Below the pieces are notes generated by a model. It was not told the origin of the DNA. It ran no database searches and saw nothing but the letters and a program-made list of their open reading frames with translations. Source: Lachnospiraceae bacterium 3-1 (GTDB taxonomy: Bacteria; Bacillota; Clostridia; Lachnospirales; Lachnospiraceae). Taken from it: DNA of 64,000 bases. How positions within the stretch are numbered: the stretch's first letter is position 1; each line of letters starts with the position of its first letter. The position numbers and the translations under genes were made by a program. Of the stretch, positions 56,038 through 62,434 are shown in pieces. The stretch spans positions 87,313 to 151,312 of the forward strand of contig KE159582.1 in assembly GCA_000403255.2 (NCBI GenBank). The letters run 5' to 3'.

Positions 56038-56910
56038 ATGAGCAATACATATCAGGACTTGCAAAACTCCCATCCGTGTTTTGGCGGTCATAAAAATAAT
56101 GTGGGGCGGATTCATCTTCCGGTTAGTCCGGGATGCAACATTGCCTGCCGCTTTTGCGACAGGGCAGTCAATGATGTGGAAGAGCGTCCGGGAGTAACAT
56201 CCAAAGTGATAACGCCTGATGAAAGCCTTAATGTTCTGGAAAAAGCGTTATCCATCTGTCCGGAAATCACAGTTGCCGGCATTGCAGGGCCGGGAGATAC
56301 GCTTGCTACGGATTATGCCTTGGAGACTTTCCGGAAAGTGAAAGAAAAATTTCCGAAGCTCATCAAATGTATGAGCACAAACGGGTTGCTCTTGTATGAA
56401 AAGGCAGATGAAGTGATTGATGTAGGAATTGATTCTTTGACCGTTACCGTGAATGCGGTAAAACCTGAGATTCTCACAAAGCTCAATAAATATATTATTT
56501 ATCATGGCAGAAAATACGAAGGCACAGAAGGGGCAGAGATTCTCATAGGGAATCAGTTAAAAGGTATCAGAAAAGTTGCGGCTGCCGGTATCACAATCAA
56601 GATAAATACGGTACTTGTCCCGGAAATTAATGGCGGGCATATAGAAGAAATTGCAAAAACTGTAAAAGAGGCGGGCGCAAGCATTTATAATATTATTCCC
56701 TTGATTCCACAGTATGAACTGGCTGACCAAAAAGCTCCTGTCTGTTTCCAGATTGACGAAGCAAGGACAAAAGCTTCCAAGTATATTGATGTATTCAGGC
56801 ATTGCCAGCACTGCAGGGCGGATGCGGTGGGTGTTCCGGGAAAATCGGAGTATGGCGATCAGATTTACCAGAGAAGAATAAATGCAAAGGAAACGTTCTC
56901 GCATGGATAA
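56038..56910 (+). CDS. NifB-like radical SAM cofactor maturase
   Basis: A 290-residue radical SAM protein of the NifB type. HPCFGGHKNNVGRIHLPVSPGCN at the start, the CxxxCxxC cluster (Cys33, Cys37, Cys40), VTSKVITPDE, VAGIAGPGDTLAT and the C-terminal RHCQHCRADAVG are hallmarks. NifB makes the 8Fe-9S-C precursor of nitrogenase cofactors. Its presence suggests the NifDK-like pair carries a complex Fe-S cofactor and not a simple cluster. The NifX-like tail of longer NifB proteins is absent but is encoded by the next gene, which it overlaps. Confidence 0.9.
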   Translation: MSNTYQDLQNSHPCFGGHKNNVGRIHLPVSPGCNIACRFCDRAVNDVEERPGVTSKVITPDESLNVLEKALSICPEITVAGIAGPGDTLATDYALETFRKVKEKFPKLIKCMSTNGLLLYEKADEVIDVGIDSLTVTVNAVKPEILTKLNKYIIYHGRKYEGTEGAEILIGNQLKGIRKVAAAGITIKINTVLVPEINGGHIEEIAKTVKEAGASIYNIIPLIPQYELADQKAPVCFQIDEARTKASKYIDVFRHCQHCRADAVGVPGKSEYGDQIYQRRINAKETFSHG

Positions 56911-57301
56911 TAAATTGACACGTGTTAATCTGGCAGAGGGAGTGCCGGAAGTGGGGACATATAAAGCGGCTGTGGCATCCAGTGATGGAATTGTCGTAAA
57001 CCAGCATTTTGGCAGGGCAGATACGTTCTATATATATGAAGTGGCGGGAGCGGGCAGTTACAGATTTCTTGAAACAAGGACCGCCTCGCCGATATGTAAC
57101 GGAGGGAATCATAATGAGGAAAAGCTTTGCAGCAATATCAGTAAATTTAAGGACTGTAAATATATCATAGTTAGCAGGATCGGCATGGGCGCTGCAAACA
57201 GGATGGAACAATTTGGCGTTACGCCGATGGAGCTGCCGGGAATGATAGAAGAATCACTCGGCAAGCTGATTACATATGAACAATTACAACATTTATTTTG
57301 A
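56882..57301 (+). CDS. NifX/NifB-C-type cofactor carrier protein 1
   Basis: A 139-residue protein of the dinitrogenase iron-molybdenum cofactor family. YKAAVASSDGIVVNQHFGRADTFYIYEV is the family strand-loop with its conserved histidine, and CNGGNHNEEKLCSNISKF... ADIIIVSRIG-like segments follow. Such proteins hold or pass FeMo-co precursors. It overlaps nifB by 29 bases and the NifH start region by four; ATG 56,903 is an alternative start. A split NifB plus carrier arrangement is thus preserved. Confidence 0.85.
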   Translation: MQRKRSRMDNKLTRVNLAEGVPEVGTYKAAVASSDGIVVNQHFGRADTFYIYEVAGAGSYRFLETRTASPICNGGNHNEEKLCSNISKFKDCKYIIVSRIGMGAANRMEQFGVTPMELPGMIEESLGKLITYEQLQHLF

Positions 57302-57315
57302 AAGGAAAAAGAACA

Positions 57316-60677: not shown

Positions 60678-61976
60678 ATGGCAAAGTTACTGGATAAACA
60701 GAGATATAAATGCGCCATGGGCGCAATGCAGACCGTGCAGGCAATCACAAGGGCAATCCCGGTGCTGCATTCCGGTCCGGGCTGTGCGCAGAAGCTGTCA
60801 GACGGGACCGGAAGTTCCGGTTATTTTTCCCCGAATATTTTCCCATGTACCAGCATCAATGAAAAGGACGTGGTGTTCGGCGGCACAAAAAAACTGGAAA
60901 CCACCATTGAAAATGCATTAAAGGTAATTGATGCGGACTTATATGTTGTGCTGACCGGCTGTATCCCGGAAATCGTAGGGGATGACACGGGCGAGGTAGT
61001 CAGCCGGTTTGCGGATGCGGACAAACCGGTGATTTACGCATCTACGGCAGGATTTAAGGGGAATAACTATATCGGGCATGAGCAGGTGATTGACGCCATT
61101 ATCGACCAGTATCTGGAAAAATCAGAAGAAAAGGAAGATGGTCTTGTCAATATCTGGGCGGATGTTCCTTACCAGGATTTATTTTGGCTTGGAAATATCA
61201 GGGAGCTGGAAAAGCTGCTTGCCAAAATCGGGCTCACGCCAAACACAATTTTTGGCTACCACAGGGGCATTGATAATATAGATAAAATACCAAAAGCACA
61301 ATTTAACCTTCTGGTATCCCCCTGGGTTTCCGTTTCAAATATGAAAAAAATGGAGAAAAAACTGGGAATTCCCTATCTGCATATTCCGACACTCCCGATC
61401 GGCGCATATGAAACGAGCAGATTCCTGCGGGAAGTTGGAAACTATGCAGGCGTGGATACCGAAAAAGTGGAGCGTGTCATTCAGGCGCATGAGGATTATT
61501 ATTACTACCTGATTGAAAGGTATGCGGATCTTTTCCTTGAAAACCGTGTCATTAATAAGCAGTTTTCTGTGGTTGCGGATGCACAGTATGCCCTCGGTAT
61601 TACAAAGTTTTTAGCGAATGACCTGGGGCTTGTGCCTGCAAAACAGTTTATTGTGGATGATACGCCAAAACAGTACCGTGAGGCGATTACAGAAGAGTTC
61701 AAAAAGCTGAACTTTAACTTGCAGGCAGATGTCATATTTGAAACGGACAGCTACAAGATCCATGAACAGATTAAGGCGCATGACTATCATGGTTATCCGC
61801 TGATTCTTGGAAGCTACTATGAAAAGGAGCTTACGGAAAGCCTGAAGGGGAATTACTTAAACATCGCATGGCCGGTACAGGATAAAGTGGTACTGGATGA
61901 TTTCTATGCAGGTTATACAGGAGGCATCCGTCTGATTGAAGATATTTATACTGTCGCCGTGCAGAGATTTAATTAG
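60678..61976 (+). CDS. NifK-like nitrogenase component 1 beta subunit
   Basis: A 432-residue NifK-family protein, shorter than the 520 or so residues of true NifK. Cys12 (YKCAMGAM), Cys36 (HSGPGCAQKL) and Cys95 (LTGCIPEIVGDDT) correspond to the beta-subunit P-cluster cysteines. Other family segments are FPCTSINEKDVVFGGTKKLE and VDDTPKQYR. It begins four bases after nifD, and the two should form an alpha2-beta2 complex. AGAAGGAGG overlaps the end of nifD. Confidence 0.9.
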   Translation: MAKLLDKQRYKCAMGAMQTVQAITRAIPVLHSGPGCAQKLSDGTGSSGYFSPNIFPCTSINEKDVVFGGTKKLETTIENALKVIDADLYVVLTGCIPEIVGDDTGEVVSRFADADKPVIYASTAGFKGNNYIGHEQVIDAIIDQYLEKSEEKEDGLVNIWADVPYQDLFWLGNIRELEKLLAKIGLTPNTIFGYHRGIDNIDKIPKAQFNLLVSPWVSVSNMKKMEKKLGIPYLHIPTLPIGAYETSRFLREVGNYAGVDTEKVERVIQAHEDYYYYLIERYADLFLENRVINKQFSVVADAQYALGITKFLANDLGLVPAKQFIVDDTPKQYREAITEEFKKLNFNLQADVIFETDSYKIHEQIKAHDYHGYPLILGSYYEKELTESLKGNYLNIAWPVQDKVVLDDFYAGYTGGIRLIEDIYTVAVQRFN

Positions 61977-61990
61977 CAGGAGGTTTTCGC

Positions 61991-62434
61991 ATGTCTTATA
62001 AGATAGCGGTTGCATCTTCGGATGGGAAGCAGATTGATGAAACCTTTGGTTCTGCCAAAAGATTTATGATATACGAAGTGGCAGACGGTATATATAAAAG
62101 GCTGGAAGAAAGAGTTTTTTGTGAGGAAGAAACAGATAACAATGACGTATCTATAGTGAATGGCTGTAATTCGCCGGTTGGCTGCAAAAAGGAAGGCGGC
62201 TGCGGTACAGGAGGCGGCTGCAGCGGCGCAGGGGAAGCGTCTGCAAAGGTAGAACTTGTATCGGACTGCAGGTGCGTGGTCTGTAAAAAGATTGGATTCC
62301 ATATACAAAAACAATTGGAGCGAAAGGCTATTTCGGCTTTTGACGTCACCTGCCCGGTGGAAGAGGCGCTGGAAAAGATTTCACATTACTTTACCCGGAT
62401 GGATAACCATGAGTCTTTACGGGTGCAGAGATAA
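61991..62434 (+). CDS. NifX-like protein 2 with cysteine-rich insertion
   Basis: A 147-residue NifX/NafY-type protein starting SYKIAVASSDGKQIDETFGSAKRFMIYEV. The middle is a Cys/Gly-rich insertion (CNSPVGCKKEGGCGTGGGC), followed by DCRCVVCKKIGFHIQKQLERK. Extra cysteines suggest metal or cluster binding, perhaps insertion of the cofactor or an Fe-S donor. AGGAGG precedes ATG 61,991. It closes the nitrogenase-like operon. Confidence 0.82.
   Translation: MSYKIAVASSDGKQIDETFGSAKRFMIYEVADGIYKRLEERVFCEEETDNNDVSIVNGCNSPVGCKKEGGCGTGGGCSGAGEASAKVELVSDCRCVVCKKIGFHIQKQLERKAISAFDVTCPVEEALEKISHYFTRMDNHESLRVQR

Follow-up and report, generated by a model that had tools for sequence, protein, structure and literature searches.

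The operon and its recurrence

The DNA analysed here is a stretch of 64,000 nucleotides from Lachnospiraceae bacterium 3-1 (contig KE159582.1), called the window below, and coordinates throughout are positions within it. A nitrogenase-like operon of seven genes occupies 56038–62434, and the genes and the features described around them (54294–63683) lie on the + strand. The order is nifB, nifX, nifH, a cysK-like gene, nifD, nifK and a second nifX, and neighbouring genes are separated by −29 to +17 bp. The nifB-like radical S-adenosylmethionine gene (56038–56910) overlaps the first nifX-like gene (56882–57301). A nifH-like Fe protein gene of nif type follows (57316–58164; analysed from 57319, i.e. 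minus the first Met), and then the gene of a cysteine-synthase-like pyridoxal phosphate (PLP) enzyme, here CysK2 (58182–59180). The nifD-like (59195–60673) and nifK-like (60678–61976) genes encode the proteins called D and K below. The last gene (61991–62434) encodes a NifX-like protein with a Cys-rich insert, which is also Gly-rich. The operon genes match the Pfam and NCBIfam families Radical_SAM and nifB (7.9e-79), Nitro_FeMo-Co, Fer4_NifH (7.7e-130), PALP (1.1e-67) and Oxidored_nitro (4.3e-72 and 8.7e-72 for the D and K genes), and both NifX-like proteins are assigned by family match. With the NifB model the first protein scores 265.4 bits, below the cut-off of 343.65; it has no fused NifX domain, and it is the next gene that matches the C-terminal NifX part of the model. 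A terminator-like hairpin followed by a T run stands at the 3′ end of the operon (62455–62479), and a LysR-type regulator gene lies beyond it (62640–63683, 44% identical to the LysR at 47367–48278).

The genes upstream encode that LysR, a MetC-type PLP enzyme, a PatB C–S lyase (466.9 bits, cut-off 340), glutamate–cysteine ligase, PdxS, PdxT and cysteine synthase A (cysK, 54652–55590; TIGR01139, 448.6 bits, cut-off 350.95). In its own draft genome (96.75% complete), the only PF00148 proteins are the two of the operon, so NifEN was not found. The first-pass annotation had described a nif-like block in one orientation with tiny gaps or overlaps, downstream of cysK and other sulfur genes, lacking nifEN and co-encoding a PLP enzyme; coordinates, family matches and the genome scan agree with it on each of these points.

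A scan of a genome collection gave 497 stretches encoding relatives, and neighbourhoods were counted in the best 80 only, omitting from each gene-order count the loci too short to show the gene. Downstream, nifK follows nifD in 77/77 loci and nifX follows nifK in 65/74. On the 5′ side of nifD are a CysK-like gene (65/70), nifH (62/66), nifX (54/66), nifB (53/62) and, further 5′, cysK (43/55). Most of the order nifB–X–H–cysK–D–K–X, for which a survey had been proposed, thus recurs in most of 80 related contigs, far beyond chance. The nine loci missing the NifX-like gene after nifK are by title Treponema or other spirochaetes.

By title, the 80 contigs come from Lachnospiraceae, Ruminococcus, Butyrivibrio, Eubacterium, Clostridium, Treponema and others, with many gut or rumen metagenome-assembled genomes (MAGs); many gut and rumen bacteria carry the gene set. 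The literature searched holds no description of this gene order that we found, most subscription papers being outside the reach of the search. The earlier statement that no such system is described from gut Firmicutes stands in this sense, but the system itself is not limited to Firmicutes, as the record titles include Treponema. For the wider family, an even draw of genomes from the same class gave a PF00148 protein above cut-off in 51/291, and a draw from the same phylum gave a match to the D alignment at 1e-30 in 60/398, NifD and other types included.

Kinship and ligands of the operon proteins

Among solved proteins, D is closest to MarD of the Rhodospirillum rubrum methylthio-alkane reductase (Mar, MarBHDK; PDB entries 9fmg and 9d9u) at 1.1e-91, with the best NifD at 1.5e-31; K is closest to MarK at 1.9e-113, the next match being 4.7e-21. 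The identity between D and MarD is 34%. A predicted model of D (mean predicted local distance difference test score 74.7, several stretches below 50) has the Mar complex as its top Foldseek match (6.9e-36, template modelling score 0.82; first non-Mar match 8.6e-22). In the D tree (55 rows chosen from 183 candidates), the window clade, with three looser rows included (100/94), and the clade holding MarD (100/97) are sisters that join at 100/99. The K tree (42 rows from 156) has the same shape with weaker support (join 91/77). Approximately unbiased (AU) tests reject a constrained grouping of the window D clade with Clostridia NifD/NifE rows (p-AU 0.00089) and with MarD plus its nearest relative (p-AU 1.3e-70). 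D lies outside the NifD/NifE rows by tree and AU test, K outside the NifK/NifN rows by tree only, and D is not inside the clade of R. rubrum MarD by either method. By these trees and tests, the D and K sequences form a sister clade of Mar and are not members of it. The first-pass view that the pair is not of the N2-fixing type is upheld; its likeness to Mar holds in that MarDK is the nearest characterised relative, but not as membership.

Ligand residues are given in the MarD numbering of PMC12552129, except that P-cluster Cys66, Cys91 and Cys158 were placed by our alignment. D keeps these three cysteines, Cys270, Gln74, Trp195, Phe199, His375 and the Arg428–His429 pair. Of the 14 columns checked in the 75 full-length D proteins of the clade, only that of Gly59 varies (G 65, S 7, A 3); in K, the three P-cluster cysteines never vary (73/73). 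The six P-cluster cysteines and Cys270 are therefore present throughout (75/75 D, 73/73 K). The Arg–His pair, kept in 75/75, lies in loop I and has been called a possible hallmark of Mar (PMC12552129). Against Clostridia rows of NifD type, D has other residues in the columns of Val70, Gln191, His195 and Gly424 of NifD, with Trp and Phe in those of Gln191 and His195. The kept ligands, with the NifB motifs described below, suggest that a P-cluster and an [Fe8S9C] cluster are the expected cofactors of DK. Mar is the only nitrogenase-like enzyme shown with the large clusters of nitrogenase, and it uses them on C–S bonds (PMC12552129).

A second, different DK pair lies 3′ of the operon in 21/58 loci by the neighbourhood count; such a pair was noted at L081:13787–15226 and in 22 further loci. 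It shows about 30% identity in D and 35–40% in K, and keeps the P-cluster and cofactor cysteines; Cys replaces Trp195, Thr replaces His375, and the Arg–His pair is absent. This pair is another uncharacterised nitrogenase-like type, perhaps using the NifH of the operon too.

The six NifB motifs, as listed in PMC5715403, are complete in the window protein and in 55/58 relatives. The NifH-like protein scores 473 bits against Clostridium pasteurianum NifH and 290 against MarH. A tree of 43 rows places it with the nif-type NifH proteins of Clostridia and away from those that accompany most DK pairs of the Mar clade and of group F; the branch of one row (L197) is very long, and the deepest forks are uncertain. 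Group F, in which D shows about 30% identity and lacks Arg428, may be equivalent to Nfa, the group IV-A system of E. proavitum and Heliophilum, which is likewise a group IV nitrogenase-like system without NifEN (PMC9147875). At the Mar-clade locus G328, which encodes the D closest to MarD, the NifH is also of nif type and is 82% identical to that of the window. A MarH partner is thus not a strict feature of Mar, and the pairing of nif-type NifH with Mar-like DK is not unique to the window clade. The window NifH would score as a diazotroph marker. NifH phylogeny, proposed earlier as a classifier, would by itself mislead, since this NifH falls among nif-type proteins and not with MarH. Ruminiclostridium hungatei (L110) carries, besides a window-type operon, one contig with one NifH and four PF00148 proteins, and its two NifH copies sit on separate branches; its genome has 28 PF00148 matches in all.

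The operon thus has features of two known systems. With Mar it shares the DK fold, the nearest sequence kinship, a NifB-type maturase (PMC12552129) and the ligands named above; it differs in its nif-type NifH in place of MarH, separate NifX genes, a CysK-like gene between nifH and nifD, and a setting among cysteine genes. With Mo-nitrogenase (NifHDK and NifB) it shares nif-type NifH, the NifB motifs, the P-cluster cysteines and the cofactor cysteine, but not the NifEN pair, the four NifD columns or the place in the trees.

CysK2 is 54% identical to the upstream CysK and scores below the NCBIfam cut-offs (315.1 against 350.95 for CysK, 329.3 against 344.15 for CysKM). Like CysK (O-acetylserine sulfhydrylase) it keeps the stretches SVKDR, which we take to be the lysine region, TSGNTG, GTGGT and SSGAA. 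It differs by an insertion of about 15–20 residues and by a PFEGVPVERV-type stretch in place of IQGIGAGFV, suggesting that its acceptor or thiol may not be that of CysK. The CysK-like gene between nifH and nifD is the mark of the window clade, with exceptions.

Leader, hairpins and a tRNA-Cys-like element

A sigma-70-type promoter with a 12/12 consensus match, its sole basis, is placed at 54294–54322. It precedes an open reading frame (ORF) of 32 residues with five Cys codons in a row (54389–54487), likely a cysteine-attenuation leader; a terminator-like hairpin followed by a T run (54515–54544) separates this leader from cysK. A Cys-rich leader usually means attenuation by cysteinyl-tRNA. Within 500 bp 5′ of cysK, a short ORF holding 5 or more Cys among 12 residues occurs in 10/47 loci, compared with 31/5254 background stretches of 500 bp (coding stretches and the leaders themselves included). 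The counts are 12/47 against 133/5254 at 4 or more Cys, and 15/47 against 720/5254 at 3 or more. Induction of the operon by cysteine shortage is probable from these features. Leaders of CCCCC and MCCMCCMC types were seen 5′ of cysK in L054, L089, L049 and others, and also in L240 and L242–L245. The idea of near-universal leaders with a CCC run was rejected (7/47 loci). An Rfam scan around the leader gave nothing but tRNA above the gathering score.

Between cysK and nifB lies a short DUF2292 (YezD-like) ORF (55627–55707), which matches the C-terminal half only of PF10055 (36.4 bits, profile positions 18–37 of 37). It is followed by a long terminator-like hairpin, CTGGAAAACCAGAGG ... CCTCTGGTTTTTT (55709–55842, z −6.5), with similar elements in many related loci. 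A CTGACTGGAAAACCAGAGGTTTTG ... CCTCTGGTTTTTT hairpin stands after the DUF2292 ORF in many of L032–L110, with a possible competing short hairpin, CTGG-AAAA-CCAG, beside it.

The last element 5′ of nifB is a tRNA-Cys-like cloverleaf (55868–55937) with anticodon GCA, A at the place of T73 and no CCA. ARAGORN, run on 60 of the 80 loci, found such an element in 24 of the 57 scanned loci with nifB; it starts 97–187 bp 5′ of the nifB match. The arms covary (9 pairs changed on both sides, 30 cells, 0/500 shuffles), and the anticodon stem has one invariant A–G mismatch. A model built from 20 elements scores at least 78 bits in 26/62 sources, R. hungatei among them. The elements have A or G at position 73, while a separate canonical tRNA-Cys of the genome has T73. 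In R. hungatei the element (L110:8978–9049) lies right 5′ of nifH, with GAA in the anticodon loop and the GG of the D-loop lost; L239 has ACA. Because the canonical tRNA-Cys is separate and these two relatives lose the Cys anticodon, a decoding role is doubtful.

At 1e-20 the element occurs in 9/392 genomes of the same order: the window genome, two with it beside nifB (one at the place of L105), five with it directly 5′ of DUF2292 and metK-like genes, and one with it in another setting. Family matches confirm both genes in L242 and the DUF2292 gene in L243. By eye, a Cys-rich short ORF lies further 5′ in 5/5 of the elements beside DUF2292 and metK. Carriers of the operon without the element exist, e.g. 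Lachnospira multipara. The element seems to act in the regulation or processing of sulfur genes and is possibly a new regulatory RNA; we found no description of it in the literature searched, with the same limit on subscription papers as above. Across the window, L110, L240 and L242–L245, a terminator-like hairpin often precedes it.

Sulfur setting and candidate function

Neighbours in the 80 loci were counted by sequence clusters, and the counts are lower bounds since the loci differ in length. They include MetC-type (at least 35), PatB-type (at least 31), Rrf2 (at least 27), LysR (at least 25), NifS-type (at least 18), SsuA/SsuC-type (at least 15), cystine-type permease (at least 13) and CysE (at least 12) genes. 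The one Rrf2 protein scanned is CymR-like (110.6 bits, cut-off 195). Together with the genes upstream of the operon, these neighbours support the sulfur setting described earlier. The setting is common to a wider group. We compared 14 stretches around other DK pairs, 11 of them outside the window clade, and 8 of the 11 have CysK-like or SsuA/SsuC-like genes (7 CysK-like). L250 has only a MetC/MetY-type gene, and the short L251 and L257 have no such sulfur gene. A sulfur-gene association has been noted for IV-A genes (PMC10418091): MarHDK-like genes beside type I mlp clusters are likewise nitrogenase-like genes with sulfur genes including CysK and MetY, with IV-A type and corrinoid methyltransferase clusters as features of their own.

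The sulfite-reductase domain NIR_SIR has no match in 8/11 carrier genomes, among them L. multipara, E. uniforme, C. polysaccharolyticum, Butyrivibrio LC3010 and Treponema JC4. It was found in R. hungatei, one MAG and the window genome. PAPS_reduct matches occur in 7/11 carriers, above 100 bits in 3. The lack of NIR_SIR makes it likely that in most carriers tested the released sulfur is already at the level of sulfide or a thiol, and disfavours a sulfite-releasing reaction of the Isr kind.

The Mar-sister subunits and their place among cysteine genes suggest that the operon likely frees sulfur for cysteine and does not serve N2 fixation. We consider it rather probable that DK cleaves a C–S bond of an organic sulfur compound and that CysK2 turns the product into cysteine. 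We infer the following steps. The organic sulfur compound would presumably be imported. DK, with a predicted P-cluster and [Fe8S9C] cluster, would likely be reduced by the NifH-like protein and would then cleave the C–S bond. The sulfide or small-thiol product would be converted to cysteine by the cysteine-synthase-like enzyme, with the operon induced when cysteine is short. The core idea of the first-pass annotation, that sulfide or a thiol is set free and then captured by the PLP enzyme, is retained at this inferred strength. The broader proposition is tentative, and we put it at somewhat below even: that this is, in gut and rumen anaerobes, a new and widespread family of nitrogenase-type desulfurases with a Mar-like P-cluster and [Fe8S9C] cluster, a nif-type Fe protein and a cysteine synthase of its own, releasing sulfide from an organic sulfur compound for cysteine and switched on at cysteine shortage by a poly-Cys leader and a tRNA-Cys-like RNA, to which much of the gut Cluster III nifH belongs.

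Several observations weigh against C–S cleavage with capture by CysK2. The pocket differs from that of MarD, with Gly59 for Cys73, Ile179 for His194 and Tyr361 for His376, so the substrates of Mar need not be those of the window enzyme; the MarD His194 column is also variable inside the Mar clade. In both the D and the K tree, the software warns of long branches that join each other. The CysK-like gene before nifD is absent in 5/70 loci and less than 60% identical in 20 of the 70 loci given as having a CysK-like hit there. Locus G254 has no CysK-like gene between nifH and nifD, and the divergent member G655 has one after K instead; CysK2 is not obligatory to the system. No transporter type is common to most loci; SsuA/SsuC-type genes occur in only 15/80, and their names rest on NCBI scores below cut-off (89.4 against 163.5 and 60.8 against 347 bits). 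Cys-rich leaders are found in a minority of loci. The window genome itself encodes two NIR_SIR proteins, so sulfite could be used there.

The same evidence bears on other functions. A minimal nitrogenase, in which nif-type NifH, NifB and DK fix N2 without NifEN, agrees with the type of the NifH and the complete NifB motifs. The lack of nifEN, taken earlier as an argument against N2 fixation, does not suffice alone, as NifEN-free fixation has been reported for Roseiflexus (PMC11573651) and E. proavitum (PMC9147875), and Igai et al. find no grounds to discount it in L. multipara (PMC4995403). The AU test against NifD/NifE, the four changed NifD columns, the invariant Arg–His pair and the cysteine-gene setting speak against it, as does Mar itself, which has the same ligands and does not reduce N2 (PMC12552129); we regard N2 fixation as highly improbable. 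An ordinary methylthio-alkane reductase that supplies methanethiol for methionine would suit the sister relation, the shared ligands and the MetC-type gene in 35/80 loci. It is equally hard to credit, given the CysK-like gene before nifD in 65/70 loci, the rejected grouping with MarD, and a pocket and Fe protein unlike those of Mar, the G328 NifH qualifying the last point.

A sulfonate reductase, which would free sulfite from isethionate, taurine or similar compounds, is quite unlikely. The SsuA/SsuC-type transporter genes fit it, and Isr (IsrBHDK of Rhodobacter capsulatus), another nitrogenase-like BHDK set that obtains organically bound sulfur, reportedly occurs in bacteria of the intestine (PMC11423573). 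However, Isr releases sulfite, IsrD carries a single P-cluster Cys and lacks the cofactor Cys, and IsrB does not resemble NifB (PMC11423573); here the P-cluster cysteines, the cofactor cysteine and the NifB motifs are all kept, and most carriers tested have no NIR_SIR match. Membership in Isr was rejected on these published P-cluster and IsrB criteria, which set the two apart by description and not by sequence. Slightly less unlikely is the reduction of inorganic or S–S sulfur (thiosulfate, polysulfide, sulfite), or of a selenium analogue, to feed CysK2. The CysK2, CysE, NifS-type and CymR-like genes suit any source of sulfide, but the scaffold is of the C–S reductase type, and such substrates need no ATP-costly chemistry.

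If C–S cleavage is the true function, gut surveys that take the nifH of this operon as a sign of N2 fixation need a second look. In four cohorts, Igai et al. report Cluster III nifH with kinship to Lachnospira, Butyrivibrio and Ruminococcaceae from 10.7 to 31.7% of individuals; they take its bearers as candidate N2 fixers and list L. multipara ATCC 19207 among these by its Cluster III NifH (PMC4995403). In the draft genome of that strain (L103, G295), one NifH match is better than 1e-80 and lies inside a window-type operon, and no DK pair (PF00148) was found besides the two proteins of that operon. The nifH of L. multipara ATCC 19207 belongs to the window-type operon. The clade, common in animal guts and usually with a cysteine-synthase partner, offers a tractable route to how the clusters are tuned to other substrates, and to the way in which anaerobes of the gut may obtain sulfur for cysteine without reducing sulfite.

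About 20–30 kb upstream of the operon, a Mob_Pre plasmid recombination gene (25315–26472) and a phage-type integrase gene (34245–35009) mark a likely mobile element.

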